From Belliella pelovolcani (GTDB lineage: Bacteria; Bacteroidota; Bacteroidia; Cytophagales; Cyclobacteriaceae): a stretch of DNA of 64,000 nucleotides. Within the stretch, counting starts at the first letter, position 1, and every line of letters begins with the position of its first letter. The notes below the pieces were generated by a model. That model searched no databases. It was given only the letters and a program-made list of their open reading frames with translations, and had not been told where the DNA came from. Position numbers and translations under genes: made by a program. Positions 14,478 through 64,000 of the stretch are shown here, one piece after another. Location: positions 186,001-250,000 of the forward strand of contig NZ_FTOP01000004.1 of NCBI RefSeq assembly GCF_900156785.1. The letters are read 5' to 3'.

Positions 14478-17447
14478 ATGAGAAAAGCTTACAAACTCAC
14501 GGCTGTACTCGCATTACTCTTCCTTTCAGTAGGGTGGTCTTATGCGCAGTATACTGTCACGGGAATTGTGACAGATGCCCGAACAGGAGAACCCCTGATT
14601 GGGGCTAATGTATTAATTAGGAATACCACGACAGGTACTGTAGCCAACCTAGACGGAAGGTTCACATTGAATGTACCTGGCAATAATGAAGTGGTATTGG
14701 TAATTTCATCGTTGGGCTATTTAAGCCAGAATTTCACTGTAAGTCAATCTAACAACAACTTACAAGTAGCGCTAAGGGAAGATGCTACCAACTTAGAGGA
14801 GGTTGTAGTGACTGGTTTGGCTTCATCTGTGAAGCGGTCTAATCTAGCCAATGCTGTTTCCTCTGTTTCCTCCAGGGAACTGACAGGCACAACAACGATT
14901 CAAACTACAGATGGCGCACTTTACGGCAAAATTGCCGGTGCAACGATCAGGTCAAATGGTGGTGCACCAGGAGGTGGACTTTCTATCCAATTGAGAGGTA
15001 TTTCATCCCTATCAGGAGCTTCACAACCATTGATTATTTTGGATGGTGTATATATCAATAACTCCTTCCAAAGAACTGGTAGAGCAGCTGTTACAGGAGC
15101 GGGGGCATCAAATCAAGATGATGGTTCCAATAGACTTGCCGACTTAAACCCAGCGGATATCGAAACTATAGAAGTATTAAAAGGACCTTCGGCAGCTGCG
15201 ATATATGGTACAAGAGCGAATGCTGGGGTTATTATCATCACCACTAAAAGAGGAGCTGAAGGCAAAACAAAAGTTTCCTTAGCTCAAGATATTGGATTTG
15301 CTCAACCTTTAAGATTGTTGGGTGTCGATGATTGGAGTGAGGAGAAAATTAATTTCTTCTTCCCAGAAGCCAATAATAGAAGACAAATAGAGCTTCAAAG
15401 ATTCAGAGAAGGAAATAGAATTGATTATGAAGACTATTTCTACAACAATACTGCTTTATTAAGCAATACTAGGTTGACAGTCACAGGTGGAAATGAAAAA
15501 ACCAAATTCTTTGTTTCGGGAAATATTACATCTGAAGACGGTACCGTGAGAAGAACTGGTTTTGACCGTTATTCTATTCGTGCTAATATTGACCACAAAA
15601 TATCCAATAGCATCAGATTAGGTGTATCTTCCAATTATATTCAATCTAACACAGATAGGGGATTTACAGGTAACCAAAATAATACAGGTGCTAGTATTGG
15701 GTATACCATAGCATATGTACCGAATTATTTTGACTTAAGGCCAGTTAATGGAATTTATCCTGACAACCCATATTTCAATGATAACCCTGCGGCTATTACT
15801 GATAATGCAATCAATAATTCAGAAGTGAATAGATTCGTTCAATCTTTTACTCTAGATATAGATTTATTAAAAACAAATAATAGCTTTTTAAAAGCCAATA
15901 TTGCTGGTGGTTTGGATTTTTTACAAAACTCAACAATGATCTACCTACCTGAATTTCTACAATCTCAGAGAGCTTCTGCCAATCCAGGTGATTTATTGAT
16001 TGGAAAGCAAGAAAGCTTTAATTCTAATTTTCAAGCTGCTTTGGTATATAATTGGAATTTAGGTCAAGTAAACATGAACTCCCAAGCGGGTTTAGTAAGG
16101 TTAGACTTCAAAAATTCTTCATTATTCAACAGAGGTAGAGGTCTTGTTCCTGGACAAACCAATTTAAGGCAAGCTGCTGTTCAGGAAATTAATGAAAACT
16201 TTAATTCAGAAATTCAAGAGGCGGGGGTATTTTTACAACAGGAAGCAAACTGGGAGGATAAAGTCATCGGTACTGTTGGTGTAAGATGGGATAAATCAAC
16301 GCTTAATGGTAACGCTAATCAATTCTACGCTTTCCCTAGAGCATCTTTAGCTGTAAACATAGCTAATTTTGACTTCTTTAACTCTACGGTAGTTAACCAA
16401 TTGAAGCCAAGAATCGCTTATGGGGAAACAGCAGGGCCAGTAGCATTTGGTAATATTTACACACCATTGATTGGAGCTAATATTGGAGGTCTTTTGGGAT
16501 CAGTAGTTTCTTCACAAGTAGGAAACGAAAGAATTTTCCCAGAAACTGCAACGGAACTAGAGTTTGGTGTTGATGCTGGATTATTTAATAACAGACTTGG
16601 TATTGAAGCTACTTATTATATCAAAAACACACAAAACAATATCCAAAACCTTAACCTTTCTCCAGCCGCTGGTGTAAATACCACACCAAGTAATGAAGCT
16701 GAACTTCAAAATAAGGGTATAGAATTGGGTATATCTGGTACAATCGTGGATAAGTCTGATTTCAGATGGTTTTCTAGAGTTTTATATTGGAGAAACAGAG
16801 TCAACTTGACAAGATTAGGAATTCCAACATATACTGCGGGTGCCTTTGGTTCAGGGTTGGGAACCTTCCTTTATGCCCAAGGCTTTCCACCAACAACTAT
16901 CGTAGGAACACCTGCCGACCCAAATGTGCCTGGTGGTTTTACTATTTGGGGTGATGCACAGCCTGATTTTAATATGTCATTTTATAATACCATCAGTCTA
17001 AAAAAGAACCTGGAACTATCATTCCTTGTAGACTGGAGACAAGGTGGTGACAATATCAACCTGACTTCATTCCTAACAGACTCAGGAGGAACAACAAATG
17101 GCTGGTTTAATGATGACAATGGAGATGGCATTCCAAATGGAAGACAAAGACCACCTGCACCACATAATAATGCTGCAAGATGGGTACAAGATGCCTCTTT
17201 TGTGAAAGTAAGAGAAATAGGTTTGTATTATACCTTCCCTAGAACCCAAGTAGCAAATATGTTTGGCGGTGCATTAGAAAACATTAAAATCGGAGCTTCT
17301 GCAAATAATGTTTTCCTTTTCACTAAATATGAAGGATATGATCCAGAGACTTCTACCTTTGGAGCTCAGTCTGTTGCGAATAATGTGGACATTGCTCCAT
17401 ATCCAACGCCAAGAAGAATTTTCTTCCATATAACGCTCGATTTTTAA
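14478..17447 (+). CDS. SusC/RagA-type TonB-linked outer membrane receptor
   Basis: This 989-residue protein has a signal peptide (cleavage near residue 24, SYAQ). A carboxypeptidase-regulatory-like domain follows at about 27-105 (VTGIVTDARTGEPLIGANVL). The TonB box region (NLEEVVVTG), the plug (LSIQLRGISSLSGASQPLIILDG) and a large beta-barrel ending in a terminal aromatic strand (FFHITLDF) come next. It imports a glycan or peptide ligand across the outer membrane with its SusD partner, whose gene starts 18 nt downstream. No enzyme or dedicated regulator accompanies the pair, so the substrate is unknown. Confidence 0.92.
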   Translation: MRKAYKLTAVLALLFLSVGWSYAQYTVTGIVTDARTGEPLIGANVLIRNTTTGTVANLDGRFTLNVPGNNEVVLVISSLGYLSQNFTVSQSNNNLQVALREDATNLEEVVVTGLASSVKRSNLANAVSSVSSRELTGTTTIQTTDGALYGKIAGATIRSNGGAPGGGLSIQLRGISSLSGASQPLIILDGVYINNSFQRTGRAAVTGAGASNQDDGSNRLADLNPADIETIEVLKGPSAAAIYGTRANAGVIIITTKRGAEGKTKVSLAQDIGFAQPLRLLGVDDWSEEKINFFFPEANNRRQIELQRFREGNRIDYEDYFYNNTALLSNTRLTVTGGNEKTKFFVSGNITSEDGTVRRTGFDRYSIRANIDHKISNSIRLGVSSNYIQSNTDRGFTGNQNNTGASIGYTIAYVPNYFDLRPVNGIYPDNPYFNDNPAAITDNAINNSEVNRFVQSFTLDIDLLKTNNSFLKANIAGGLDFLQNSTMIYLPEFLQSQRASANPGDLLIGKQESFNSNFQAALVYNWNLGQVNMNSQAGLVRLDFKNSSLFNRGRGLVPGQTNLRQAAVQEINENFNSEIQEAGVFLQQEANWEDKVIGTVGVRWDKSTLNGNANQFYAFPRASLAVNIANFDFFNSTVVNQLKPRIAYGETAGPVAFGNIYTPLIGANIGGLLGSVVSSQVGNERIFPETATELEFGVDAGLFNNRLGIEATYYIKNTQNNIQNLNLSPAAGVNTTPSNEAELQNKGIELGISGTIVDKSDFRWFSRVLYWRNRVNLTRLGIPTYTAGAFGSGLGTFLYAQGFPPTTIVGTPADPNVPGGFTIWGDAQPDFNMSFYNTISLKKNLELSFLVDWRQGGDNINLTSFLTDSGGTTNGWFNDDNGDGIPNGRQRPPAPHNNAARWVQDASFVKVREIGLYYTFPRTQVANMFGGALENIKIGASANNVFLFTKYEGYDPETSTFGAQSVANNVDIAPYPTPRRIFFHITLDF

Positions 17448-21090: not shown

Positions 21091-22398
21091 ATGAAACTTT
21101 TAGATAAATCATTTAAACCATTTGTGATGATGACTACCATTTTGGTTTTGGTCAGCATTCCTTTGTTTTATTTTGTAGTCGTTTATATATATACTGTAGA
21201 TGCTGATCAATCACTTATAAACAACAAATTACGTGTAGAGGATCAGCTCAATCATCTTCATATGCATCCAAGAACAGCAGTTATAAGAATCAGGCTTCTG
21301 AACGAATTGGATATTGGATATCAAATAATATCCATGGATACTTTTCCTGCTGAAAGGGGTGATCGGTTTTATACAGCAGAAAGATTTGACCAATATTCAA
21401 ACAGCATCAGGCCATACCGATATTTGGAAACAGTTATTGATATTTTTGACAAAGAATATCTATTGAAAGCCGAAGTCGATATGGAAGAGTACTTTGATGT
21501 AATCCCATACACTACGGCAGTTGCAGGGCTTTTTTTCTTTTTGATACTAATTGGATATTATTGGATCAATAGAAGCATAGCACGAAAAGTCTGGCGACCC
21601 TTTTACAAGAGCATAGATGAATTATCGAATTTAAATATTCAAAATGGACAAACGCTTAGCCCTATTGAATCAGATATTGAAGAATTCAAGAAACTTTCTG
21701 ATAATTTACTCTTTTACACCAATAGGAGTCACTCTGCCTACATGCAGCAAAAAGAATTTACTGAAAATGCCTCACATGAATTACAAACTCCTTTGGCTAT
21801 TATTCAGTCAAAAGCAGAATTACTTATACAATCTAAGTTGACAAAAGAGCAATTTGAAATCGTTGACCAAATCAATTTGGCTGTCAATAGAATGAATAGG
21901 TTAAACAAAAATTTACTTCTTTTGACCAAGCTAGAGAACAAGCAGTATCTAACCAATGAAAATGTAAATTTATCTGATGTAGTCAAAGAAACTCTAGAGC
22001 TTTATCAATCTAATTTTGAAAGCAAAAATTTGAGTAGCTATGCTGAAATTAAAAATTCGATCATTATAAAGGGGAATATTGCTTTAATAGAGACATTGAT
22101 AAATAGTTTATTGACGAATGCTACCACTCATAATTTTGAAAATGGAAAGATCAAAGTTTACCTCAATAGTAAATCTTTGATCATTCAAAATACGGGGAAT
22201 TCAACAGCTCTTGATAAAAATAAGATTTTTAAAAGATTCAATAAAGACAATAAAAACTTAGCTGGGAGTGGCTTGGGACTTGCTATATGCAAAGAGATTG
22301 TACAATTGCATGATTTTAAAATAAGTTATAGAATGATCAATGATTTACATTCTTTTAAAATAACCAATTTTACGCCTATTACTGAAACAGTAATTTAG
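21091..22398 (+). CDS. Sensor histidine kinase
   Basis: This 435-residue inner-membrane kinase has transmembrane segments at about 11-33 and 140-160 around a periplasmic sensor of about 105 residues. HisKA carries His229 (ENASHELQTPLAII). The ATPase domain has an N-box (NSLLTNATTHN) and a G2 box (GSGLGLAI). The G1 box reads QNTGNS, with Asn in place of the usual Asp. It presumably phosphorylates the response regulator encoded upstream. The following TonB, DUF4876, DUF6850 and peroxidase operon is the obvious target. The signal is unknown. Confidence 0.9.
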   Translation: MKLLDKSFKPFVMMTTILVLVSIPLFYFVVVYIYTVDADQSLINNKLRVEDQLNHLHMHPRTAVIRIRLLNELDIGYQIISMDTFPAERGDRFYTAERFDQYSNSIRPYRYLETVIDIFDKEYLLKAEVDMEEYFDVIPYTTAVAGLFFFLILIGYYWINRSIARKVWRPFYKSIDELSNLNIQNGQTLSPIESDIEEFKKLSDNLLFYTNRSHSAYMQQKEFTENASHELQTPLAIIQSKAELLIQSKLTKEQFEIVDQINLAVNRMNRLNKNLLLLTKLENKQYLTNENVNLSDVVKETLELYQSNFESKNLSSYAEIKNSIIIKGNIALIETLINSLLTNATTHNFENGKIKVYLNSKSLIIQNTGNSTALDKNKIFKRFNKDNKNLAGSGLGLAICKEIVQLHDFKISYRMINDLHSFKITNFTPITETVI

Positions 22399-52013: not shown

Positions 52014-52040
52014 GTTACAATCTTGTAGGCTTGTGTTACA
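52014..52040 (+). promoter_or_regulatory. GTTACA direct repeat at 21-bp spacing
   Basis: GTTACA occurs at 52014-52019 and 52035-52040, exactly 21 bp apart start to start. The same arrangement occurs between the regulator and sulfatase genes and upstream of the SusC gene. A -7 element starts 37 bp after the start of the second copy. Confidence 0.6.
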
Positions 52041-52071
52041 CCTAGATAGGTCCTCTTGATCTCTGAAACTT

Positions 52072-52079
52072 TATTTTTG
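52072..52079 (+). promoter_or_regulatory. -7 element of the GH110-like gene
   Basis: TATTTTTG matches TAnnTTTG exactly. It lies about 100 nt before the start codon and no good -33 TTTG is present, as expected of an activator-dependent promoter. Confidence 0.4.
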
Positions 52080-52178
52080 GCCTAGAAAATCTTGACAAAT
52101 CACTACTCAAAATATGGATAGACCAAGAGTAAATTTGTCTTCTAGAACCTATAAATCTTAATAAATTTTAAAAAATAC

Positions 52179-53996
52179 ATGATACCCAAATTTATCAAAA
52201 ACCTAGTTTTTACGTTTCTCACCCTTTCAATTAGCGTCTTTGCCTTTGCTAATTCGACAATTGTTATCGAGCCAACGAGAGAAGACATGACACCCAAAAT
52301 CCGTGAGCTTATTGAAAACAGCAATGAAAAAGACCTAATCATTGAATTTAAAAAAGGATCATATAAGTTTTTGCCAGACTATGCTTCAGGCAAATATTTA
52401 AGCATTACAAATCACGGAAATGGATACAAAAAGATCATTTTCAATTTTGATAAATTCCGGTCAGTCACTATTCAAGGTAATGAATCTGAATTCATCTTTC
52501 ATGGTCAAGCTATGCCATTCTTTTTCGAGAGCTGCGAAAGTGTAAATATCAGTGGAATAACCATTGACTGGGATATTCCATTTACATTCCTAGGTGAAGT
52601 GATAGCTGTCAATGAAGAAGAGGGCTGGCGTGATATTAAACCCCGAAGGGAAGGTTTTTCATGGATCATTAAAAAAGGCAGGTTGGAGTTTCCAAATATT
52701 GATGGATTCAATTATACCTATCCAGGAAGTACATTAGCATTTGACCCGATCGAAAAAAGACCCATGCATGGTGCTTGGGATATCAATAGTAACCCAAGGT
52801 GGGTGGAAGAGTTGCCCAATGGAAATTTGAGATTCCATGAACATTTAAATCATTATCCACCTGTAGGTTCACTGCTTAGCTCCAAAGGTGATCGCGAAAA
52901 TGACCGGTATGCTCCAGCTTTTGAGTTCAAAACATCCTCAAGTATCATTTTAGAAAATATCACTATTCACCATGCCTTAGGTATGGGATTTTTATTTGAA
53001 CGCTCTGAAAATATCCAAATTCTAAATAGCGGAGTGCATTTAAGAGAAGGTTCCAACAGAGTCATTTCCTCCACAGCCGATGCAACCCATTTTGCCAATT
53101 GCAAAGGATCCATTTTGATTGAAAATTGCAGGTTTGAAAACATGCTTGACGATGGTACCAACGTACGTGGAACTTATGTGGTAATCGACAAGATCATCGA
53201 TAATAAAACTGTATTAACCAAATTCATGCACTTCGAGCAAATGGGTTTTGAATTTGCCGCCCCATCTGACGAGGTTTGGTTTATCAAGCAGCCCTCTCCT
53301 GAGCGAAGTGAAACAGCTATCGTCAGTCAAGTAAGAACCATCAACGAGCAATTCACTGAACTTAGCTTCACTACTAATATTCCAGCAGGATTGCAGCCTG
53401 GGGATATTTTAGAAAATAAGACCTGGAATCCAGAATTCACCATGCGAGGCTGCACAATCAGAAATCACCGCGCAAGAAATATTGTTCTCAAAACTCCTTT
53501 GAAAACGATTATTGAAAACAACTACTTCTCATCTATGATGTCTTCTGTATTCTTTAGAGGAGAAACGTTCTTTTGGTTTGAATCTGGAGGAGTAACGGAT
53601 GTGTTGATCCAAAACAATACTTTTGAATACTGTGCATATAGCGGAGCTGAACATGCTGTTCTAAACATCACACCAAGATTAGGTAAATCATTTGATCAGG
53701 AGCAGTTATATGATCGTAATATTAGATTTGAGAATAACACCATACATACATTTGGAAATAGAATCGTCATGGCTGATAGGGTAGATGGATTAATAATTCA
53801 AGGGAATAAAATTGTGAAAATCGATCAAGGTCCTAATCTTTATCCTGATGCTCCAATGATAGAACTAACAAACTCTCAAAACATTAGCATAGAAGGTAAT
53901 AGTTATGAAGGCGAATCTATCAAAGCCGTAAAACCAGATGAAAAAAGCTCAAAAACCTTAAAAATTGAAAATAATAAAGGGTTTAATGAAAAGTAA
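52179..53996 (+). CDS. GH110-like alpha-1,3-galactosidase (right-handed beta-helix)
   Basis: This 605-residue exported protein has a signal peptide (cleavage near AFAN, residue 25) and a parallel beta-helix. GH110-like landmarks are SEFIFHGQAMPFFF (about 100), ADATHFANCKGSILIENCRFE (Asp301) and MLDDGTNVRGTYV (Asp324, Asp325). The 23-residue spacing from Asp301 to the Asp pair agrees with the catalytic aspartates known in this family. GH110 enzymes cleave alpha-1,3-galactose from blood-group B antigens or lambda-carrageenan fragments. The neighbouring S1 sulfatase points to a sulfated galactan, but this is inferred. Confidence 0.75.
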   Translation: MIPKFIKNLVFTFLTLSISVFAFANSTIVIEPTREDMTPKIRELIENSNEKDLIIEFKKGSYKFLPDYASGKYLSITNHGNGYKKIIFNFDKFRSVTIQGNESEFIFHGQAMPFFFESCESVNISGITIDWDIPFTFLGEVIAVNEEEGWRDIKPRREGFSWIIKKGRLEFPNIDGFNYTYPGSTLAFDPIEKRPMHGAWDINSNPRWVEELPNGNLRFHEHLNHYPPVGSLLSSKGDRENDRYAPAFEFKTSSSIILENITIHHALGMGFLFERSENIQILNSGVHLREGSNRVISSTADATHFANCKGSILIENCRFENMLDDGTNVRGTYVVIDKIIDNKTVLTKFMHFEQMGFEFAAPSDEVWFIKQPSPERSETAIVSQVRTINEQFTELSFTTNIPAGLQPGDILENKTWNPEFTMRGCTIRNHRARNIVLKTPLKTIIENNYFSSMMSSVFFRGETFFWFESGGVTDVLIQNNTFEYCAYSGAEHAVLNITPRLGKSFDQEQLYDRNIRFENNTIHTFGNRIVMADRVDGLIIQGNKIVKIDQGPNLYPDAPMIELTNSQNISIEGNSYEGESIKAVKPDEKSSKTLKIENNKGFNEK

Positions 53997-54057
53997 ATAT
54001 GAGAATCCGCGAAGTTGCACGTTCAGAAAAAAGAGGCTTTATATCATGCGGATACTC

Positions 54058-54085
54058 GTCCACAGACAACAGCCCACAGCTTGTG
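54058..54085. repeat. Degenerate heptad-periodic intergenic repeat
   Basis: GTCCACA, GACAACA, GCCCACA and GCTTGTG lie end to end here. The stretch is GC-richer than the surroundings, between the GH110-like gene and the convergent regulator gene. Confidence 0.35.
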
Positions 54086-54166
54086 CGTGACGTAGTCAAC
54101 TGAAGGTGAAATCATACATTCTTCTATTAATTGTTTGGCTAATTGCAAGGAAGCGCATATACATAT

Positions 54167-54205
54167 ATAATCAAAAGGGGCTCTGTAGAAGCCCCTTTTG
54201 ATTAT
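54167..54205. terminator. Bidirectional terminator hairpin
   Basis: A perfect 16-bp inverted repeat (54167-54182 with 54190-54205) has a GGGGCT/AGCCCC core, an A-rich left arm base and a T-rich right arm base, and a 7-nt loop. It separates the convergent GH110-like and regulator genes. Confidence 0.85.
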
Positions 54206-54276
54206 CTAATTTATCACTCAATTTGATATCCTAAAGAAGATCGTTTTTAGAATCGACAAAGCAAAACTCACATTTT

Positions 54277-57200
54277 TCAATGATCAATCTCCTTGCTTTT
54301 TGACTTTAGGTTATTCAAGTACTCGGTTGCGGTGATGTTCATGATTTTCTTAAAGTTATTATTGAAACTACCATAATTGGTCATACCAATGGCGTTCATG
54401 ACTTCTTGTACCCTGTCACATCCTTGATCAAACATGCTGACGGCATGCTTGATTTTCGCCCGCACAATGATTTCCTTGCCCGTTTCACCTACTAGAGTTT
54501 TGAGCTTGCGATGAAGGTGCATTCTACTCAATCCTACTTCATTGGCGAGATCATTCACAGTAAAACTAGCATCTTCAAGGTTTTCTTCAATTACCTTATT
54601 CACATTTTGAAGCAAGCGCTGATCATAGGATGTATAATGGGTTCTAATATCGAAATCTAAATTATGTTCAAGTAGATACGATTTAAACCTATTCCTAGTC
54701 ACTAGAATATTTTCTACTTTCCTATGCAAAACTTCAGAGTCAAACGGTTTGGTGATGTAGTCCCATGCGCCAGCATCTAGGCCTTTTTTCTGCATTTCCA
54801 CATCCGTTTTAGCTGTGAGAAATAAGATCGGAATATGAGAAGTACCCTCATTTGATTTGAGAAGCTTACACATTTCAATACCATCCATGATTGGCATCAT
54901 AATATCACTGATAATGATATCAGGAAGCTTATTCTGCGCCATTTCAAAACCTTGTTCACCGTTATTAGATTCCAAGATTCCATAATCATGCTGCAAACTC
55001 AATTTCAAATAATTCCTTAAATCATGGTCATCTTCCACAATCAAAATTGTTTCCTCATTCACCGCTGTCTCTTCTTCAAAAAGAGTATCTGCATCGTTGT
55101 AAACCTCTGCAGTTTCATCAGTTAAATCAGTCTGATAATTTGAGTATCGTTCTTTTGAAATTGGAAGTTCTATGATAAACTTCGCTCCACCCAGCTTACT
55201 ATCTACCACCTCAATAGATCCACCATGGGCTTGAATAAGCTGCTGAGCTAAATGCAGACCTATTCCAGAAGAAGCTCGATCCTTTCCGTGATAAAACCGC
55301 TCAAATACCCGGTCTTTTTGCTCATCAGGAATTCCAGGACCACTATCGCTCACAGTTATGATGGCAATCAATTCTCCCTCAACTTCTTTGGACTTTAAAG
55401 ATATATTTATGGTGCCTCCCTGAGGCGTGTATTTGAAAGCGTTAGATAAGATATTATAAAACCCTTTTTCAAGGACATCTTGATCAAAAAATCCCACACA
55501 ATGATCAAGGTTTAATCTCAAATCAATTTTCTCGTGATTGACTTGCCATTCAAAAGATTGTAGGTAGTCACGAATGGTTTGTCTTAAATCCCTTTTTGTC
55601 ACCTTGATGAGGTTCAATCCTTCTGTTATTTTTCCTAAATCTAATAATTGATTGACTAAAAAATTCATTCGATTGATGTTTCTAGAGACAATTTGAAGGA
55701 ATACATTCTTTTGATCTGAATTAAGATCATGTTTGAACAAATCGTTAAAAGGAGCTAAAATCAAGGATAAAGGAGTTTTGAACTCGTGAGCTACATCCAC
55801 AAAAAACCTCAGCTGCTTTTCCCTAAGGGCATTATCTTGATTGATTTTGATTTGATCTAGCTGTATTTGATGATCTAATCTTTGCTTACTATGATAGAAA
55901 TAGATAAAAACAATAATAATCGATATCAATACTAAGGAATAAATCAAATATGCTATAGGGGTCTTCCATGGCGACGGAATAATACTGATCGGTAAGTATA
56001 TTGAATTCTCTGCCCAATTACCCTCATTATCTTCTGCTTGAATCTGTAAAACATAATTGCCTGGATCTAAATTGGAATACGAAATCAACCTATTTTCATT
56101 GGCATTGATCCATTTCTTATCGTAATTTTCTAGTCGATACCTAAACCTATTCTTTGTAATGCTGGAATAATCAGTTCCAGCAAATTCAAGGGAGAAATTG
56201 TTCTGGTTGTGATTTAATTCTAAAATTTCCGCTGAATTGATATTCTTATTTAAAATCACTGATCCAAATAGCTCTCTACCAGGCGTAACGAGTTCATTGT
56301 GGATTTTAAGATTAGACAATAGAATTTCAGGCTTTTTTAGTTTGGTGTTCAGTTTTTGAGGATTAATAAAATTCACCCCACTTGTTGTACCAAAGAAAAG
56401 TAAATCTCCGAGCTTACCTGAACCTTCTGTCATGCTACTCGATAGAAGACCATCGCCATAATCATATTTCATGATTTTACCTGACTCTGGTTTATACTGA
56501 ATTAGACCATGGGTATTTGAAAGCCAAAGGTCACCAATGTTGTCCTCCACAATGCTCACGATTTTCTTGTCTAAAATTCCATCAATTTCTACCTGCTCAA
56601 AAACTCTGGAATCTTGTTCTCTAACAAACAAACCAACATCTGAACCTAACCAAATGCTATTATTTTTATCTGTATGAAAAGCCCAAACTGAAGTATTGAA
56701 AATAGGGGAGTCATTCAAATCATATAATAATTCATCTTCAAGTCCCAAGAAATCTCCCTTTTCATCAAAATTGATTGCTATAAGGCCTTTTGAAATGGTA
56801 GCAACAAGTAATTGTTTACTATTTTTATCATAATGCATTCTAAAAACAGTATATTCTTCAAGTTCCTTAAGTGCTGCATGCTCTGCCCATACCAGTTGAT
56901 AATTATTGTTATCCTTAAAAACTATACCATTGCTGGTTCCTAAAAAAATGCGACCAAACTCATCTCTTTCTATTGATCTAATACCTTGAGATCTCCTATC
57001 TGCAATCACCCCATTCAAAGACACGCGTTGAAATCTTTTATCTCCATCATATATCAATAGGCCTTGATCCGAACAAACATAAAGTTTGTTATCAATTTCA
57101 GCCATCTGGTTGACATATTTGATATCGTATGGAATCAGTTTTTCGAATTTTTGAGTAGCCAAATCAAAATTGAACAATCCTTGATTATTAATCCCTATGT

Positions 57201-58254
57201 ATAAATCGTTTTCCTTCACATACAAATTCCTAATGTATGGTCTATTAAGGTCATTCAATTTTAATGAACTAAACCATGTCTTTTCAAGACTTGTAAAACA
57301 TAAACCATGTCGATTCCCAACCCATAAATTGTTTGATCGGTCAAAATAAAGAGATAAAACAATATTGCTCAATAAACTCCTATTATCTAATTGAGATGAA
57401 ACAAATTGATTGACAAAATTCAAAGAAGAATCCAATTGAATTAAACCACTTACTTCAGTTCCTACCCATAAGTTTCCCTGATTGTCTACTTCTAGTGATA
57501 GCACAGTTTCTTTGTCAACTAACTCAAGTTGATTCAAAAATCCACCTTTTTCTAAGTCAACAACTTGGTAAAGACCTGTCAATGATCCTACTATTATCTT
57601 TTCATTCACAATTTCCATACAGGTGACGGTTGCATTTGTAGGGTCTTTTATTTTCTTTAAGATTTCATTTTCTAACAAAAAAACACCTGAATCCCCCACA
57701 AAAAACTTGTTTCCATTGGCGTCCTCAGCAGAGGACTTAAAATGAATTTTTTTGGAAGATTGGATATACTCAAAATATGCTTCTTTCTCTTCATTCAATT
57801 GGAGTATCCCATTACTTGTGGCTGCATAGAATTTTTTATCATTAGACAGTAAAAAATCATAAACTGTCCCAGTACCTGCAGGGGTGGGAATACGTACAAA
57901 TTTCTCTTGCTGAAGAGAATAATATGAAACATGCCCTGCTTGAGTACCAATCCAAAGTCTCTTTTGGTCATCTTCTTTTAGTGAGCTAATTCTATTGTCG
58001 GGTAAACTTTCTGGATTGCCCGATACTCTGTGAAAGGACTGAACCCTTACGCCGTCAAACCTATTTAATCCATCAAAAGTCCCAATCCAAATAAATCCAA
58101 AACTATCTTGTACGATTGAGTTAACATCATTTTGGGACAACCCATTATCAACACTCAACTGCCTGAAGTAAAGCTCTTGTGCTGCGACACTACCAACGAG
58201 GAAAACAATTAACAATAGTGTCGATATAATATTTGTTATTTTGAGATTTTGCAT
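54277..58254 (-). CDS. Hybrid two-component system regulator (HTCS)
   Basis: This inner-membrane protein of about 1325 residues senses and regulates in one chain. It has a signal segment (MQNLKITNIISTLLLIVF), then periplasmic two-component propeller repeats (for example NDVNSIVQDSFGFIWIGT), a Y_Y_Y domain and a transmembrane segment. HisKA follows with His823 (VDVAHEFKTPLSL), then an ATPase domain, a receiver domain with Asp1117 (IISDIMMPIMDG) and a C-terminal AraC-type HTH. I start it at the ATG at 58254; the frame is open to 58305. It probably controls the flanking GH110, sulfatase and SusC/SusD genes. Confidence 0.92.
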   Translation of the reverse strand: MQNLKITNIISTLLLIVFLVGSVAAQELYFRQLSVDNGLSQNDVNSIVQDSFGFIWIGTFDGLNRFDGVRVQSFHRVSGNPESLPDNRISSLKEDDQKRLWIGTQAGHVSYYSLQQEKFVRIPTPAGTGTVYDFLLSNDKKFYAATSNGILQLNEEKEAYFEYIQSSKKIHFKSSAEDANGNKFFVGDSGVFLLENEILKKIKDPTNATVTCMEIVNEKIIVGSLTGLYQVVDLEKGGFLNQLELVDKETVLSLEVDNQGNLWVGTEVSGLIQLDSSLNFVNQFVSSQLDNRSLLSNIVLSLYFDRSNNLWVGNRHGLCFTSLEKTWFSSLKLNDLNRPYIRNLYVKENDLYIGINNQGLFNFDLATQKFEKLIPYDIKYVNQMAEIDNKLYVCSDQGLLIYDGDKRFQRVSLNGVIADRRSQGIRSIERDEFGRIFLGTSNGIVFKDNNNYQLVWAEHAALKELEEYTVFRMHYDKNSKQLLVATISKGLIAINFDEKGDFLGLEDELLYDLNDSPIFNTSVWAFHTDKNNSIWLGSDVGLFVREQDSRVFEQVEIDGILDKKIVSIVEDNIGDLWLSNTHGLIQYKPESGKIMKYDYGDGLLSSSMTEGSGKLGDLLFFGTTSGVNFINPQKLNTKLKKPEILLSNLKIHNELVTPGRELFGSVILNKNINSAEILELNHNQNNFSLEFAGTDYSSITKNRFRYRLENYDKKWINANENRLISYSNLDPGNYVLQIQAEDNEGNWAENSIYLPISIIPSPWKTPIAYLIYSLVLISIIIVFIYFYHSKQRLDHQIQLDQIKINQDNALREKQLRFFVDVAHEFKTPLSLILAPFNDLFKHDLNSDQKNVFLQIVSRNINRMNFLVNQLLDLGKITEGLNLIKVTKRDLRQTIRDYLQSFEWQVNHEKIDLRLNLDHCVGFFDQDVLEKGFYNILSNAFKYTPQGGTINISLKSKEVEGELIAIITVSDSGPGIPDEQKDRVFERFYHGKDRASSGIGLHLAQQLIQAHGGSIEVVDSKLGGAKFIIELPISKERYSNYQTDLTDETAEVYNDADTLFEEETAVNEETILIVEDDHDLRNYLKLSLQHDYGILESNNGEQGFEMAQNKLPDIIISDIMMPIMDGIEMCKLLKSNEGTSHIPILFLTAKTDVEMQKKGLDAGAWDYITKPFDSEVLHRKVENILVTRNRFKSYLLEHNLDFDIRTHYTSYDQRLLQNVNKVIEENLEDASFTVNDLANEVGLSRMHLHRKLKTLVGETGKEIIVRAKIKHAVSMFDQGCDRVQEVMNAIGMTNYGSFNNNFKKIMNITATEYLNNLKSKSKEIDH

Positions 58255-58328
58255 AAGACACTTCACTTTGATGATCATGATATAATAATATTCATTTAGA
58301 TCCATTTCTAAAGACTTTACATCAATTT

Positions 58329-58355
58329 GTTACAGACTTAAATCATAATGTTACA
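58329..58355 (+). promoter_or_regulatory. GTTACA direct repeat at 21-bp spacing
   Basis: GTTACA occurs at 58329-58334 and 58350-58355, 21 bp apart, between the divergent HTCS and sulfatase genes. A perfect -7 element (TACATTTG) starts 47 bp after the start of the second copy, one helical turn more than at the GH110 promoter. Confidence 0.6.
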
Positions 58356-58396
58356 TAGGGTAAAATCCAGCTAGGGAGATCCTATTTATCATTTTT

Positions 58397-58404
58397 TACA
58401 TTTG
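58397..58404 (+). promoter_or_regulatory. -7 element of the sulfatase gene
   Basis: TACATTTG is a perfect TAnnTTTG match about 50 nt before the sulfatase ATG at 58455. There is no clear -33 element, in keeping with an activated promoter. Confidence 0.45.
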
Positions 58405-58454
58405 CTGATACCCCATCAATTACTCAATAATTTAAAAAAATTAAATTCACAGCA

Positions 58455-60011
58455 ATGAAAAGTTACAGACATTATTTGATTTTTTCATTCATCATGGCCA
58501 TTGGTTGTAGCCAACCACATTCGAAAGTTGCATCTGATGATATTGGAGAAAAGCCAAATATCATCATCATTTACTTGGATGATTTGGGGTATGGTGATCT
58601 AAGTGCTTATGGTGCTACAGAATTTGAGACTCCTCAGATCGACAAATTGGCAAAAGAGGGAATGATGTTTACCAATGCATACGCAACTTCCGCTACTTGC
58701 ACACCTAGTAGATATGCCTTATTGACGGGTGTTTATCCTTGGAGAAATGATGATGCTAAAATTTTACCTGGTTCAGCACCATTATTAATTGAGATTGATC
58801 AGATGACAGTTCCAAAAATGCTAAAAAATGAAGGTTATAATACAGCCATCGTTGGTAAATGGCACCTAGGTCTTGGAGATGGTAATGTCAATTGGAACGA
58901 AAAAATAACCCCTGGCCCAAATGAAGTTGGTTTTGATTATGCCTTCATCATGGCAGCTACTCAGGACAGGGTACCTACTGTTTATATTGAAGATGGACAT
59001 GTGGTCGGACTTGATAAAGATGATCCGATACTTATCGACTATGACAAGAATTTTGAAGGAGAACCTACAGGAAAAGACAATCCTGAAATGCTCCGTATGA
59101 TGTGGCATCATGGCCATAATTCTAGCATCGTCAATGGCATCCCAAGGATTGGTTATATGAAAGGTGGGGAGAGTGCCAAATGGATTGATGAAGACATGGC
59201 TGATGAATTCTTAATAAAAGCAAAGGACTACATTAAAGTTAAAAGCAAAGACAGTAAGCCATTTTTCCTCTATTATGCAATGCAACAACCACATGTACCG
59301 AGAACTCCACATCCTCGATTTGAGGGGAAGTCAGGAATGGGGCCTAGGGGAGACGTGATTTTAGAAGCAGATTGGTGCGTGGGTGAATTGATGAAAACTT
59401 TAGAAGAAGAAGGAATATTGGAAAATACCCTTGTGATTTTCTCTTCTGACAATGGGCCTGTCTTGAATGATGGCTACTACGACGATGCAGTAGAAAAACT
59501 TGGTAATCATACACCTTGGGGACCCTTTAGAGGTGGTAAATATAGTCTTTTTGAAGCTGGTACAAGAATTCCTTTCATGACATATTGGAAGGGAAAGATC
59601 CAACCTGGAGTATCTGATGCTTTGATTTCCCAATTGGATATCTTAAGCTCTTTTGCAAGTATGGTTAGAAGTGAAGTCAAAACCGATGATAGCTTGAACT
59701 TGATAGATGTATTGATGGGAAAAAGTAATCAAGGAAGGGAAGATCTTATTCTAGAAGCTATCAGCCGCACGGCTTTGAGAAGTGGAGATTACGTGATGAT
59801 TCCACCTTATGATGGCCCTGCAGTCCTCGAATCAGTGAATATTGAGCTGGGGAATAACTCAGAATTTCAACTCTTCAATATCACCCAAGACAAAGGCCAA
59901 AAGAATAATCTTGCACAACAAGAAACTGAATTACTAGCAAAGCTGATCAAAAGATTTGAAGAACTTCGTGGAAGTTACAATCAAAACATTGAGAAAATAG
60001 AGCTTAAATAG
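58455..60011 (+). CDS. Family S1 sulfatase, lipoprotein
   Basis: This 518-residue protein has a lipobox at Cys18 (FIMAIGC). The formylglycine sulfatase motif C-T-P-S-R has Cys82 as the residue to be converted to formylglycine by a maturase, which is not encoded here. Metal ligands appear as YLDDLGYGD (Asp42/Asp43) and SSDNGP. It removes sulfate esters from a carbohydrate, probably before or during import by the SusC/SusD pair that follows. The exact subfamily cannot be assigned by eye. Confidence 0.93.
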   Translation: MKSYRHYLIFSFIMAIGCSQPHSKVASDDIGEKPNIIIIYLDDLGYGDLSAYGATEFETPQIDKLAKEGMMFTNAYATSATCTPSRYALLTGVYPWRNDDAKILPGSAPLLIEIDQMTVPKMLKNEGYNTAIVGKWHLGLGDGNVNWNEKITPGPNEVGFDYAFIMAATQDRVPTVYIEDGHVVGLDKDDPILIDYDKNFEGEPTGKDNPEMLRMMWHHGHNSSIVNGIPRIGYMKGGESAKWIDEDMADEFLIKAKDYIKVKSKDSKPFFLYYAMQQPHVPRTPHPRFEGKSGMGPRGDVILEADWCVGELMKTLEEEGILENTLVIFSSDNGPVLNDGYYDDAVEKLGNHTPWGPFRGGKYSLFEAGTRIPFMTYWKGKIQPGVSDALISQLDILSSFASMVRSEVKTDDSLNLIDVLMGKSNQGREDLILEAISRTALRSGDYVMIPPYDGPAVLESVNIELGNNSEFQLFNITQDKGQKNNLAQQETELLAKLIKRFEELRGSYNQNIEKIELK

Positions 60012-60026
60012 TCATTCACCCAAAAA

Positions 60027-60053
60027 AAGTCTGAAATATTATGCCTCAGACTT
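60027..60053 (+). terminator. Weak hairpin after the sulfatase gene
   Basis: AAGTCTGA pairs with TCAGACTT around an 11-nt loop. The T-tract is poor, so it may only slow polymerase. Confidence 0.4.
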
Positions 60054-60083
60054 CCTTCAATTCATAGATGACAAGTAAATCGT

Positions 60084-60160
60084 CGTAACACCCATAACTT
60101 ATTTTGTAACATTTTAGAAGAGTTAAGTTTTGTGTTACAAAAGTGGAGAGTCGTGTTACA
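60084..60160. promoter_or_regulatory. Two GTTACA pairs in inverted arrangement
   Basis: GTTACA at 60134-60139 and 60155-60160 (21-bp spacing) faces the SusC gene. On the minus strand GTTACA (60105-60110) and GTTACG (60084-60089) form a second pair, also at 21-bp spacing. The two pairs are separated by 23 bp. This doubled site is probably bound by the HTCS regulator. Confidence 0.6.
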
Positions 60161-60454
60161 AGATTTTTATCTATAGCGAATTGTAATAATTAAACTTACA
60201 TCAGGATTTAAAGGAAAAAGTTTTGGCTTCCAACCTTTTACACTTTGCCTTTATTCTAAGATTACTCTTGCTACAAATCTAATTGGACCAGGATAATAAA
60301 TTTCTTCAGAATGATCACTCAAAAATGAATCGCTTCTGGATACAATATCCTAAGTCCGTCTCAAAAACAAATTCAATTAGCAACCTAGATTGGTTTATTC
60401 CCATCTAAAAAACCACCTAAAATTAATAATAACCTAAAATAATCATGGAGTTCT

Positions 60455-63400
60455 ATGAAAACACGTTTACTAGTTAGTTTAATCCTACTCTTCCTGTTCC
60501 AAGTGAATGATTCCTTGGCACAGATTGAAGTAAAGGGAGTAGTTACAGATGACAATACAGGAGAACCTTTAATAGGGGCTACTGTATTGGTAAAGGATAC
60601 CTCAAAAGGTACGATTACGGATCTTGATGGTACATTTACCCTCAGTGTAGATAATGAAGATGCCATTCTTGTCATTGCTTATGCTGGATATAAAAGAATC
60701 GAGTTGAAGGTTCAACCCAATATGCAAATCCGCCTCAAGGAGAGCGATGATCTTTTAGATGAATTTGTGGTAATTGGTTACGGATCTCAAAGGCGAAGTG
60801 ACCTTACAGGATCCTTGACAGGTGTTAAGAATGAAACACTCATGGAATCGAGAAGCACAGACCTTTTTTCAGCCATGCAAGGACGGATGTCTGGTGTGCA
60901 GATTTCTACTGATTCAGGCCAGCCTGGCGCTGGTATGAATATCATTGTCAGGGGACAAACTTCTATCAATGGTTCTTCCTCTCCTTTGTTTGTCATTGAT
61001 GGTGTACAAATCGATGTCAACTTTGACGAAGTTGCCAGTACAGGATCCTCTCAAGCAAGAGTCAATCCGCTGACTGGTATCAATCCCGCTGATATTGAAT
61101 CTATAGAAGTATTGAAGGATGCTTCTGCAACAGCAATTTATGGTTCAAGAGGTGCGAATGGTGTCGTAATAATCACCACAAAAGCTGGATCAAGTGGTAG
61201 AACAGTGGTCAGCTATTCACTGGATGCAAGTGTATCAGAGCCTATCAGGAGAATGCCAGTATTATCACCTGATGATTATCTGATATATCAAGCGCAAAGA
61301 GGCAACAATCAATTCTTGAATGAAGATACAAACCGAGATGGTGTTTTTGACACCCCTAGAGATTTCAGTCGATTAAGATCTTTTGATTGGCAAGATGAAG
61401 CCTTAAGGGCTGGTGTGACCATGCAGCATCAGTTTGGAATTAGGGGGGGAAACAATACCACCAATTATTCTATAGGAATAGGAGTGCTCAATCAAGAAGG
61501 TCTTGTGGTGAACAACGATTATTCTCAATACAACATGAGATTGAGACTGAATACCAAGGTAAATGAAAAATTATCATTTGGATTTAGTTCAAATGCTTCT
61601 TATTCTGTTCTAAGTGGTGTTGCCAATAATGGAGGACCAAATAGTTTTACAGGAATCACCCAACAGCTTCTTTTAGCTAACCCTTGGAATATTTTAACAG
61701 ATGATGTTGATCTGGCAAGTGATGGCTATATAAGTCCATTGGACTTAATTCAAAAATCAGACAAAAGCACTAATATTCTTAGATTGATTTCGAGCGTGAA
61801 TATGAATTATCAATTCACAGATAATTTTAAATACACGGGTGTTTTAGGTACCAATCTCAGCCAATCAAAAGTGAAAGAATATTATGGTTCAGAAACTTCA
61901 TGGGGTAGACTTCCTAATGGATTGGCCAGGCTGAAAGAAGTAAGCACCTATTCTTATAATCATTCTTCACAGTTGCATTATAACAAGTCTATTGGAACCA
62001 ATCATCAAATTGATGCCATGGCAGCATTTGAGATCTTCAGTTATAACTTTGAAGACTTTGCAAATACAGTTTCTGGATTCGAAGATGAAACAACCGGCGT
62101 AAATAACATCACCAAAGGTGCAGCTGTCACTTCTTATAGTACGCAACGGTATATTAATAATAGGCTTTCTTATTTATCAAGAGTTAATTATACGCTATTT
62201 GACAAATACTTAATTACAGCAAGTATTCGTGCAGATGGTTCGGATAAGTTTGGAGCAGAAAATAGATGGGGATATTTCCCATCGGCAGCCTTTGGTTGGA
62301 GAATTTCCGATGAAGGTTTTATGCAGGATATCAGATCAGTCTCTAATCTGAAATTGAGGTTAAGCTATGGTGCAACAGGTAACGAACGAATCCCTCCTTA
62401 CACTTACTTAGCACAATTGGATCCTGTATTCTATGCAAGCAATGATGCCATGATCTTCGGCCTCGCACCAGGTTCTCTTCCCAATCCAAATTTGAAATGG
62501 GAAGTTACCAATCAATTTAATGCTGGGCTTGACTTAGGTTTATTAGATGGAAGATTGAATTTGAGCGCTGATGTTTATCAAAAAATAACTACTGATCTTT
62601 TGTTGAATGCACCGATTCCTGCTCAGAGCGGATTTACAGCACAGTGGCAAAATATTGGACGAATTGATAACTACGGACTTGAATTAGAAATATCCTCAGT
62701 GAATTATGATAAAAATAACTTTACATGGAGAACAGACTTTAATATCACCTTTAATAGAAATAAAATTGTAGATCTAGGATCTGCAGATTTCATCCCAATT
62801 TCTACACAAGGTGACTTTCAGTCAAATATAGGTAGAGCAGCAGTAGGACAGCCAATTGGAACCATGTTCGGTTTTGTCTTTGATGGAATTTACCAAATTG
62901 ATGATTTCACTTGGCAAAACAATAGTGACCCTTCTATTCCGCATGGAAGTAGAAACTATGTGTTAAGAGATGACTTGCCTGTTTACACAGGAAATCCACA
63001 ACCTGGAAGAATGAAATATGCCGATATCAATGGTGATGGTGTAATCAATGACGAGGATAGACAAATCATTGGACAAAGTAATCCTAAGCACTTTGGAGGA
63101 ATTAATAATACATTCAGTTATAAGAATTTTGAGTTGTCTGTATTCTTCCAATGGTCATATGGCAACGACTTATTCAATGCATCCAAAGTTAGACTCAACG
63201 GTGGAGAACCATGGGCAAACGTAGTTCAGGACTACTTCGAAAATCACTGGACACCTGAAAATCCAAGCAATCAATATCCTGCACATGGTGCAATAGATAG
63301 ACAAATTTCCTCTTCCTATTTCGTAGAGGATGGATCTTACCTTCGCTTAAAGACTGCATCTTTTGGATATAATCTTCCAAGAGCCTTGGCCAGAAAGATA

Positions 63401-63571
63401 GGCATGGCAAGTCTAAGGGCAAATATCATAGGTAACAACTTACTTACTTGGACAAATTATACTGGCTGGGATCCAGAAGTGAATTTCAACAATCCATTGC
63501 TTGCAGGGCTAGATAGAATCCCTTACCCAAGAGCCAGAACCTTCACATTGAGCCTTAATGCAACTTTCTAA
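60455..63571 (+). CDS. SusC/RagA-type TonB-linked outer membrane receptor of the sulfated-glycan locus
   Basis: This 1038-residue receptor has a signal peptide (cleavage near LAQ, residue 23). A carboxypeptidase-regulatory-like domain follows (GVVTDDNTGEPLIGATVLVK), then the plug (YGSQRRSDLTGSLTG, then GASQ-type IVRGQTSINGSSSPLFVIDG) with ESIEVLKDASATAIYGSRGA. A large barrel ends in RTFTLSLNATF. It imports the oligosaccharide bound by the SusD protein encoded 11 nt downstream. The doubled GTTACA operator lies 295 nt upstream. Confidence 0.93.
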   Translation: MKTRLLVSLILLFLFQVNDSLAQIEVKGVVTDDNTGEPLIGATVLVKDTSKGTITDLDGTFTLSVDNEDAILVIAYAGYKRIELKVQPNMQIRLKESDDLLDEFVVIGYGSQRRSDLTGSLTGVKNETLMESRSTDLFSAMQGRMSGVQISTDSGQPGAGMNIIVRGQTSINGSSSPLFVIDGVQIDVNFDEVASTGSSQARVNPLTGINPADIESIEVLKDASATAIYGSRGANGVVIITTKAGSSGRTVVSYSLDASVSEPIRRMPVLSPDDYLIYQAQRGNNQFLNEDTNRDGVFDTPRDFSRLRSFDWQDEALRAGVTMQHQFGIRGGNNTTNYSIGIGVLNQEGLVVNNDYSQYNMRLRLNTKVNEKLSFGFSSNASYSVLSGVANNGGPNSFTGITQQLLLANPWNILTDDVDLASDGYISPLDLIQKSDKSTNILRLISSVNMNYQFTDNFKYTGVLGTNLSQSKVKEYYGSETSWGRLPNGLARLKEVSTYSYNHSSQLHYNKSIGTNHQIDAMAAFEIFSYNFEDFANTVSGFEDETTGVNNITKGAAVTSYSTQRYINNRLSYLSRVNYTLFDKYLITASIRADGSDKFGAENRWGYFPSAAFGWRISDEGFMQDIRSVSNLKLRLSYGATGNERIPPYTYLAQLDPVFYASNDAMIFGLAPGSLPNPNLKWEVTNQFNAGLDLGLLDGRLNLSADVYQKITTDLLLNAPIPAQSGFTAQWQNIGRIDNYGLELEISSVNYDKNNFTWRTDFNITFNRNKIVDLGSADFIPISTQGDFQSNIGRAAVGQPIGTMFGFVFDGIYQIDDFTWQNNSDPSIPHGSRNYVLRDDLPVYTGNPQPGRMKYADINGDGVINDEDRQIIGQSNPKHFGGINNTFSYKNFELSVFFQWSYGNDLFNASKVRLNGGEPWANVVQDYFENHWTPENPSNQYPAHGAIDRQISSSYFVEDGSYLRLKTASFGYNLPRALARKIGMASLRANIIGNNLLTWTNYTGWDPEVNFNNPLLAGLDRIPYPRARTFTLSLNATF

Positions 63572-63582
63572 AAGAATTAGTC

Positions 63583-64000
63583 ATGAAAAAATATATAAAA
63601 ATCATAATCTTAGCTGTGTCTGTAATGGTCACAAGCGCATGCGCTGATTTTCTTGAACCTAGACCATTTTCATTTACAGCTCCAGAAAATTTCTACAGAA
63701 CTGCAAATGATGCTGAAATAGCCTTGGTAGGCGTTTACAGTACACTTACAGCTGGTTCTGTTCAAGGAGCTGGTAATGCATCCGGTTTCCGTAGAGACTT
63801 GGTGGAAATGCTTGCCAAGGGAACTGATGAGGGTGTTAAACCAGCCAATTTCGCCAATTTAAGAGGTGGTCAATTTGGAACTGCTGGCTTTACGAGCACT
63901 GATTTTGAAATCAATAACGCTTGGTTTTTCCTTTACGCTGGTATTGGACGTGCAAACAGCTTACTTGAAAACCTTGAAAATATGCCTGATAATCTTTTTG
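63583..64000 (+). CDS. SusD/RagB-type surface lipoprotein, cut by the window end
   Basis: The first 139 codons are present. They encode a lipoprotein signal (MKKYIKIIILAVSVMVTSAC, Cys20) and the SusD N-terminal helices (FLEPRPFSFTAPENFYRTAND and AWFFLYAGIGRANSLLENLE). It is the glycan-binding partner of the SusC receptor 11 nt upstream. The C-terminal part and any following genes lie outside the window. Confidence 0.88.
   Translation, partial: MKKYIKIIILAVSVMVTSACADFLEPRPFSFTAPENFYRTANDAEIALVGVYSTLTAGSVQGAGNASGFRRDLVEMLAKGTDEGVKPANFANLRGGQFGTAGFTSTDFEINNAWFFLYAGIGRANSLLENLENMPDNLF

Follow-up and report, generated by a model that had tools for sequence, protein, structure and literature searches.

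At araI1-araI2, two AraC-type domains occupy direct repeats 21 bp apart, with the proximal half-site beside the promoter. In Bacteroides, hybrid two-component regulators (HTCSs) form one of the main regulator classes for polysaccharide utilization genes (PMC11253607). Motifs have been predicted for 16 of the 36 HTCSs of B. thetaiotaomicron, all of them direct repeats with an average distance of 21 bp; the published account is that the regulators bind as dimers whose monomers lie on one face of the DNA two turns apart, and motif similarity among Bacteroides HTCSs tracks the similarity of their DNA-binding domains (Ravcheev et al. 2013, PMC3878776). Here we describe a direct repeat, GTTACA-N15-GTTACA, in an HTCS-encoding polysaccharide utilization locus (PUL) of Belliella pelovolcani. 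The stretch analyzed (the window) comprises 64,000 bp, positions 186001 to 250000 of contig NZ_FTOP01000004.1 (C15), within a 4.1-Mb genome of 44 contigs. With a probability of roughly 0.9, we consider these pairs to be operators of the HTCS encoded at 54277 to 58305, which would activate four transcription units on one signal.

Genomic distribution of the repeat and organization of the locus

The exact pair occurs at 52014, 58329, and 60134 in the window, each with a 21-bp step, just as the initial annotation had described; 100 dinucleotide shuffles gave a mean of 0.02 pairs and at most 1. Genome-wide, there are six exact matches and one match to the reversed pattern. Four of the six precede the four predicted transcription units of the locus, in agreement with the earlier expectation that the motif would be concentrated there, and the other two are in coding sequence. 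The latter (C43:76123-76476, region L008) lie in repeated coding units at a contig end and were ruled out as operators on that ground. No exact pair was present in 20 unselected 20-kb stretches.

The spacing and the hexamer are both specific. In a 76,197-bp stretch consisting of the window plus the contig end, same-orientation GTTACA pairs with spacings of 7 to 60 numbered four at 21 and one at 48. Among 180 letter permutations of GTTACA, only the reverse complement was also repeated more than twice at 21 in this stretch, and GTTACA (with its one-base-shifted overlap GTAACA) was the hexamer most often repeated at that step, the next ones reaching two. One-mismatch pairs were not enriched genome-wide (24, versus 41 for the reversed control); weight can thus be given only to copies that are exact or conserved. 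A one-mismatch scan for further targets was discarded for its total below the reversed control, its sole conserved match being the inverted pair at SusC. The features of the locus, in window numbering, are as follows.

52014 to 52040, + strand: candidate operator A, direct repeat GTTACA-N15-GTTACA before the GH110-like gene; kept at the same place in B. buryatensis; the Gaetbulibacter orthologue has an exact pair with a different spacer
52072 to 52079, + strand: -7 element TATTTTTG (TAnnTTTG), beginning 37 bp past the proximal GTTACA of operator A
52179 to 53996, + strand: GH110-like alpha-galactosidase gene (GLAA-B barrels, beta helix)
54277 to 58305, - strand: HTCS gene (Reg_prop propeller, Y_Y_Y, HisKA, HATPase, receiver, and AraC-type domain in one chain)
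54280 to 54660, - strand: AraC-type DNA-binding domain of the HTCS (seven predicted helices, mean pLDDT 92.7)
54499 to 54528, - strand: predicted recognition helix of the first helix-turn-helix, SRMHLHRKLK
58329 to 58355, + strand: candidate operator B, direct repeat between the HTCS and sulfatase genes, directed at the sulfatase; kept in B. buryatensis
58397 to 58404, + strand: -7 element TACATTTG, beginning 47 bp past the proximal GTTACA of operator B
58455 to 60011, + strand: sulfatase gene
60084 to 60110, - strand: inverted back-to-back pair TGTTACA/TGTTACG with a 21-bp step, upstream of operator C; one mismatch, in the outer half-site
60134 to 60160, + strand: candidate operator C, direct repeat before SusC; kept in B. 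buryatensis
60191 to 60198, + strand: weak -7-like element TAAACTTA, 36 bp past the proximal GTTACA of operator C
60455 to 63571, + strand: SusC-like TonB-dependent transporter gene
63583 to 63999, + strand: SusD-like gene, of which only the beginning is in the window
67339 (contig position 253339): candidate operator D, the fourth exact site, 3,339 bp beyond the window end and before the last operon of the locus

Past the window, the locus continues with a second GH110-like gene, operator D, a beta-helix gene, and two sulfatase genes. All four direct pairs are directed at the gene behind each. The units, whose boundaries we place provisionally, are predicted to be the GH110-like gene; the sulfatase; SusC-SusD-GH110; and beta-helix-sulfatase-sulfatase. 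The HTCS more probably starts at M18, near 58254, where a signal-peptide-like stretch begins, which would leave about 75 bp between its start codon and operator B. Enzymes of family GH110 target alpha-1,3-galactosidic linkages and have been proposed for lambda-carrageenan (PMC7939477). With three sulfatases also present, the locus probably serves to degrade a sulfated alpha-galactan.

Conservation in other genomes

A search among relatives (195 genomes, own included; E at most 1e-150) found one close HTCS orthologue, 94% identical, in Belliella buryatensis (G007, the genome of locus L041); one further genome of the family had a 30% match. All four exact pairs of the B. buryatensis genome are in the locus. 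The same holds for the three exact pairs of Gaetbulibacter saemankumensis (Flavobacteriaceae), whose HTCS is 54% identical; these have unrelated spacers and precede a GH110-like gene, an operon next to a sulfatase, and a GH110B-SusC-SusD operon. Output domains were also searched in 397 genomes of the Gaetbulibacter family, and the DNA pattern was sought afterwards in 18 of these. The next nearest output domains were those of G415 (65% identity) and of G330 and G375 (44% each). Of the exact pairs in each genome, 4/5 in G415 were in the HTCS locus, and 2/3 in G330 and 1/6 in G375 were beside the HTCS; pairs were also found beside less similar HTCSs in the 18 genomes. In the orthologous loci of Gaetbulibacter and G415, both hexamers and the step are kept despite unrelated spacers. 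That the pair accompanies the HTCS gene into B. buryatensis (4/4), Gaetbulibacter (3/3), and G415 (4/5) lends support to the operator interpretation offered in the initial annotation.

SusC (70 to 71% identical), SusD (71 to 72%), and GH110 (69 to 72%) have counterparts in two Flavobacteriaceae genomes (L042/L136 and L248/L249). Together with the patchy occurrence of the locus, this identity suggests that the locus was transferred horizontally with its operators. A 121-amino-acid gene follows the beta-helix and sulfatase genes at L007:14164-14529; it had no Pfam or NCBIfam match.

Position of the repeat relative to the -7 element

From 74 distinct sites collected, two (L257 and L270, in regions without a helix-bearing domain, as defined below) were removed, leaving 72. 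The word TAnnTTT, derived from the -7 consensus in PMC7366714, begins 36 bp (51 sites) or 37 bp (6 sites) past the proximal G in 57/72 of these; the longer TAnnTTTG is present in 33. Among sites from regions picked by the helix, 41/46 have TAnnTTT at 36 to 37. The -7 element is located at -12 to -5 (PMC9723704), so that the proximal hexamer would begin near -48. In Belliella, the offsets are 37 at operator A, 47 at B, 36 at C (a poor box), and 37 at D (a box one base short, TACTTTG); the sulfatase promoter also has a second, weaker -7-like word, TATCATTT, at 37. The offsets of 37 and 47 given in the initial annotation for the GH110-like and sulfatase genes are thus correct, while the contrast it drew between them does not amount to a rule, given the preponderance of 36 and 37 among the 72 sites. 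No conserved TTTG was found around -33 in the collected sites.

The conserved half-site is TGTTACA; about one helical turn further along, a T at +10 and an A at +14 (counted from the G) are conserved more weakly. This layout fits two helix-turn-helix units per domain, with the assignment of contacts to each unit being putative. The initial annotation had also noted an inverted pair with 21-bp spacing before SusC, and this pair is indeed present. An inverted pair with an outer TGTTACG stands ahead of the direct pair at the SusC unit in Belliella, B. buryatensis, and G415 (there before the GH110B-SusC operon). The gap from inverted to direct pair is 29 versus 18, a difference of 11 bp or about one turn, and the relative helix phase of the two pairs is thus kept. 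No inverted pair was seen in G375 or G330, the latter carrying two direct pairs.

The regulator and association of its recognition helix with the repeat

A domain scan and the predicted fold both confirmed that the HTCS ends in an AraC-type domain. The model of this domain (127 residues, 50 aligned sequences) contains seven helices, two helix-turn-helix units, and a predicted AraC- or MarA-like fold, as in AraC/XylS-type proteins. Its nearest solved folds are AraC-type domains, with AraC at rank 7, the AdpA-DNA complex at rank 15, and the MarA-DNA complex at rank 29. The segment SRMHLHRKLK (residues 45 to 54) coincides with the third predicted helix (residues 46 to 57). The equivalent helix of MarA contacts bases. 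The HTCS receiver carries a SHIP motif, which in Bacteroides goes with inhibition until phosphorylation, upon which the DNA-binding domain is released (PMC11253607, in the part cited). Residues D13, K52, and K54 are nearly invariant in an alignment of 50 domains; we take D13 and K52/K54 to be the conserved D and K of the DNA-binding domain that accompany an S/CHIP motif in that paper.

In a first look, HTCSs with a pair nearby had an SRM[QH]LHRK helix, except for L051 (SRVHMHRK). No pair was near the helices SRTSLYMK, SRAQLHRK, or SRTHLHRK, and the pairs of L257 and L261 had no such domain near. As this group was partly picked by the pair itself, it serves as the source of the helix idea only. 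The helix was then searched as a back-translated DNA pattern for SRM[QH]LHRK. In 395 genomes of the phylum, there were 17 hits in 14 genomes, own included, with a single hit in the Belliella genome, in the HTCS. The 16 other hits fell in 14 regions, of which 11 had a fitting domain (L270, L278, and L279 were dropped for having none). An exact pair was present in 8/11 (L267, L269, and L272 to L277; in L277, 2.9 kb from the gene) and absent from L266, L268, and L271; the dropped region L270 still has a pair. Over the 14 regions, there were 11 pairs at spacing 21, and among the other spacings from 12 to 40 only 13 had any (n = 2). Comparison regions chosen by domain similarity had a pair in 2/20 cases, L283 (SRVHLYRK) and L292, whose helix, SRMQLHRKLE, is itself of the helix type; L295 (SRMQLHRKLL) is helix-positive without a pair.

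A second search, in the 397 genomes of the Gaetbulibacter family, returned 86 helix rows in 69 genomes. We used the first 40 rows after passing over six from idea-forming or known pair-bearing genomes (G312, G415, G515, G195, and G345 twice). An exact pair was found in 34/40 regions (none in L305, L312, L319, L325, L332, and L334), with 36 pairs at spacing 21 and at most 1 at any other spacing from 12 to 44. The highest count for any of 180 permuted hexamers, GTTACA and its reverse complement aside, was 3. Comparison regions again had a pair in 2/20 cases, L352 (SRVHLYRK) and L359 (SRVHLFRK). Taken together, both searches give 42/51 helix regions with a pair (3/54 dropped), versus 4/40 around other HTCSs.

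By gene, among 94 domains of at least 80 bits, a pair lies within 1.5 kb of 43/55 helix-positive and 3/39 helix-negative regulators (Fisher 2.7e-12, on rows that are related). In 38 of these 43 helix-positive cases, it is within 100 bp. Outside the helix, mean identity to the Belliella domain is 0.24 for positives and 0.30 for negatives, in a comparison set picked partly by similarity; overall similarity therefore does not explain the association. Variant helices suggest, in small numbers, that both the M and the H matter: none of three SRMQLYRK/SRMQVYRK and none of five SR[STA]QLHRK regulators had a pair. SRVH helices were mixed, with pairs in L051, L283, L352, and L359 and none in L280, L282, L286, L294, L341, L047, L060, and L086. 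Of these, L051 (Carboxylicivirga) has, immediately ahead of the HTCS gene, four consecutive GTTACA words at 9768-9835 that are spaced by 21, 20, and 21.

Proposed mechanism and alternative explanations

We propose that the propeller sensor would detect a product of the sulfated alpha-galactan, whereupon the kinase would phosphorylate the fused receiver and the AraC-type domain would be released. An HTCS dimer would then place its two domains head to tail on the pair, each taking one half-site, along a single face of the DNA and two helical turns apart. In each domain, the first recognition helix (SRMHLHRK) would contact TGTTACA, and the second helix-turn-helix would contact the weaker T/A patch one turn on. 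The proximal domain would end just upstream of the sigma-A -7 box. Because this box usually begins 36 to 37 bp past the first base of the proximal half-site, the dimer most likely activates a promoter that lacks a good -33 box. One signal would in this way switch on all four units, and at the SusC unit a second pair would sit back to back on the upstream side.

Several observations weigh against this proposal or against the tie between helix and pair. In Belliella itself, the SusC -7 box is poor and the good -7 box of the sulfatase stands at 47. At the Gaetbulibacter GH110B-SusC-SusD operon, the exact pair faces away, and all that faces the operon is one GTTACG, followed at 36 by TAAATTAG. Twelve of the 55 helix-bearing regulators have no exact pair within 1.5 kb. 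Six of these (L332, L319, L305, L325, L312, and L268) carry a degenerate copy, one or two bases off, with the -7 box at 36 or 37; for L266, L295, and L334, not even a degenerate pair was found. Lastly, the helix-negative regulators that do have a pair (3/39) are all of SRVH types.

Chance words in AT-rich intergenic DNA might be invoked, as the one-mismatch pair is no commoner than its reversed control. The shuffles, the reversed pattern, the spacing and permuted-hexamer controls, and conservation across classes all oppose a chance origin, which conservation refutes and to which we assign a negligible probability. The pairs might instead belong to another AraC-type or global regulator, with the HTCS a mere neighbor or target; the middle pair adjoins the HTCS start and might also control the HTCS. 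Yet the SRM[QH]LHRK pattern occurs just once in the genome, in the HTCS, the non-coding pairs are confined to the locus of that regulator, and in other genomes the pair stands beside a helix-bearing HTCS, mostly within 100 bp. We thus regard a foreign regulator as very unlikely. Repression by the HTCS from these sites is also quite unlikely. It has a reported precedent in BT2391, an HTCS with a deviant receiver motif (PMC11253607), whereas the Belliella receiver has the consensus SHIP, and D13 and K52/K54 are nearly invariant. Moreover, the site does not overlap the -7 box but is upstream of it, and the -33 region shows no conserved TTTG.

A more serious alternative concerns the helix code and not the operator itself. 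The link between helix and operator may reflect shared ancestry, the helix letters being a lineage mark and the regulator having been inherited with its operator. When a tree of 112 domains is built with the helix left out, most of the helix-bearing ones fall in a single clade. This tree implies seven helix changes, of which two are forced by well-supported branches; in these two independent contrasts, presence of the pair follows the helix in an average of 1.3 and does not differ in 0.7. On the other hand, the Belliella group, which has five members, is separated from the large flavobacterial clade by well-supported branches, and the helix-positives have the pair far more often despite being less identical outside the helix. 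Two supported contrasts cannot prove cause, and the link may partly reflect common ancestry; as the whole explanation, we find shared ancestry possible but somewhat doubtful. The operator reading of the pairs stands apart from this question.

Repeats at other HTCS loci

Across 80 HTCS loci, which include many close relatives, there was a clear peak at spacing 21, with 55 pairs in 35 loci, compared with a mean of 7.1 (SD, 3.7) at spacings of 12 to 100 except 20 to 22. A general rule for other HTCSs that includes the -7 box was weak and was set aside (11/236 anchors at 21, versus 0 to 5 at other spacings from 15 to 28). In the comparison regions, the composite geometry with a -7 box was found in 4/74, versus 0 to 3, and in unselected stretches it was found in 1/81. 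Much of a secondary peak at spacing 22 is accounted for by intergenic 22-bp-spaced repeat arrays around the HTCS gene of L112 (Prevotella histicola; 3143-3196, 7183-7236, 16016-16103, and 21402-21433).

In the helix-positive regions (L266 to L277 and L300 to L339), 41/46 pairs follow the regulator gene, on its own strand, at a distance of at most 300 bp (e.g., L316:7227, L330:6695, and L339:6737). The next gene often begins like that of a secreted protein or lipoprotein, and 26/41 have 200 to 280 nt to the next start. Three scanned kinases with this placement (L273, L252, and L253) have TPR sensor domains rather than propellers. Searches for a conserved leader RNA in flavobacterial loci gave no Rfam match except one tRNA (six loci) and no strong consensus in 26 leaders.

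Implications and comparison with known systems

Sequence evidence alone here links a regulator from another order than Bacteroides to four target units, which yields a concrete candidate regulon. With a helix association obtained in regions picked blind to the DNA site, and a usual distance to the -7 box, the site of an HTCS and its targets become a checkable prediction. We lean slightly toward the view that the SRM[QH]LHRK helix specifies GTTACA half-sites, the 21-bp step, and a -7 box locked 36 to 37 bp downstream, as a cassette used by sensors of unrelated input, namely propeller HTCSs of glycan loci and TPR-sensor hybrid kinases encoded just before a secreted-protein gene. That TPR-sensor kinases share the cassette suggests an exchange of sensors in which the output domain and the promoter move as a unit. 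Should the helix letters be causal, HTCS operators and regulons would be readable from protein sequence across Bacteroidota.

The 21-bp arrangement is a known form of HTCS operators and is not surprising in itself; what is new is the lineage and, within the literature searched, the predictive helix rule. Among the matches listed from open-licence literature, no title or abstract opening mentioned, for HTCSs, a code in the recognition helix, a constant distance to the -7 box, or an operator with GTTACA. The Belliella sites resemble araI1-araI2 in their 21-bp direct-repeat arrangement. AraC is a one-component sugar-binding dimer, whereas the regulator proposed here is a membrane HTCS presumably under phosphorylation control. 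TGTTACA is also found in the site of the Crp-like BT4338 (PMC6989115).

SusR-like operators are likewise direct repeats before Sus operons, but they have 67 or 77 bp between sites (PMC3878776), as opposed to 21 here. The receiver-AraC fragments of BT4124 and BT4663 are HTCS outputs from gut Bacteroides for which electrophoretic mobility shift assays on susCD promoters are described in the cited part of PMC11253607; the SHIP motif is also present in the Belliella HTCS. The closest likeness is to the Bacteroides HTCS operators of PMC3878776, in which a 21-bp direct repeat precedes susC-type and enzyme operons of the HTCS's own PUL. The Belliella locus shares the repeat of about 21 bp, its position before own-PUL operons, and its conservation before orthologous operons, with the exception of Gaetbulibacter GH110B-SusC. 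Beyond that account, the present analysis adds a specific hexamer, a usual -7 distance, and a named recognition helix; the comparison is with its main text, from which the terms transcription start, promoter element, and recognition helix are absent, and a GTTACA-like motif is possible among its 16. Finally, PMC3878776 covers 11 Bacteroides genomes, whereas the sites described here extend the arrangement to Belliella (Cytophagales) and Flavobacteriaceae.

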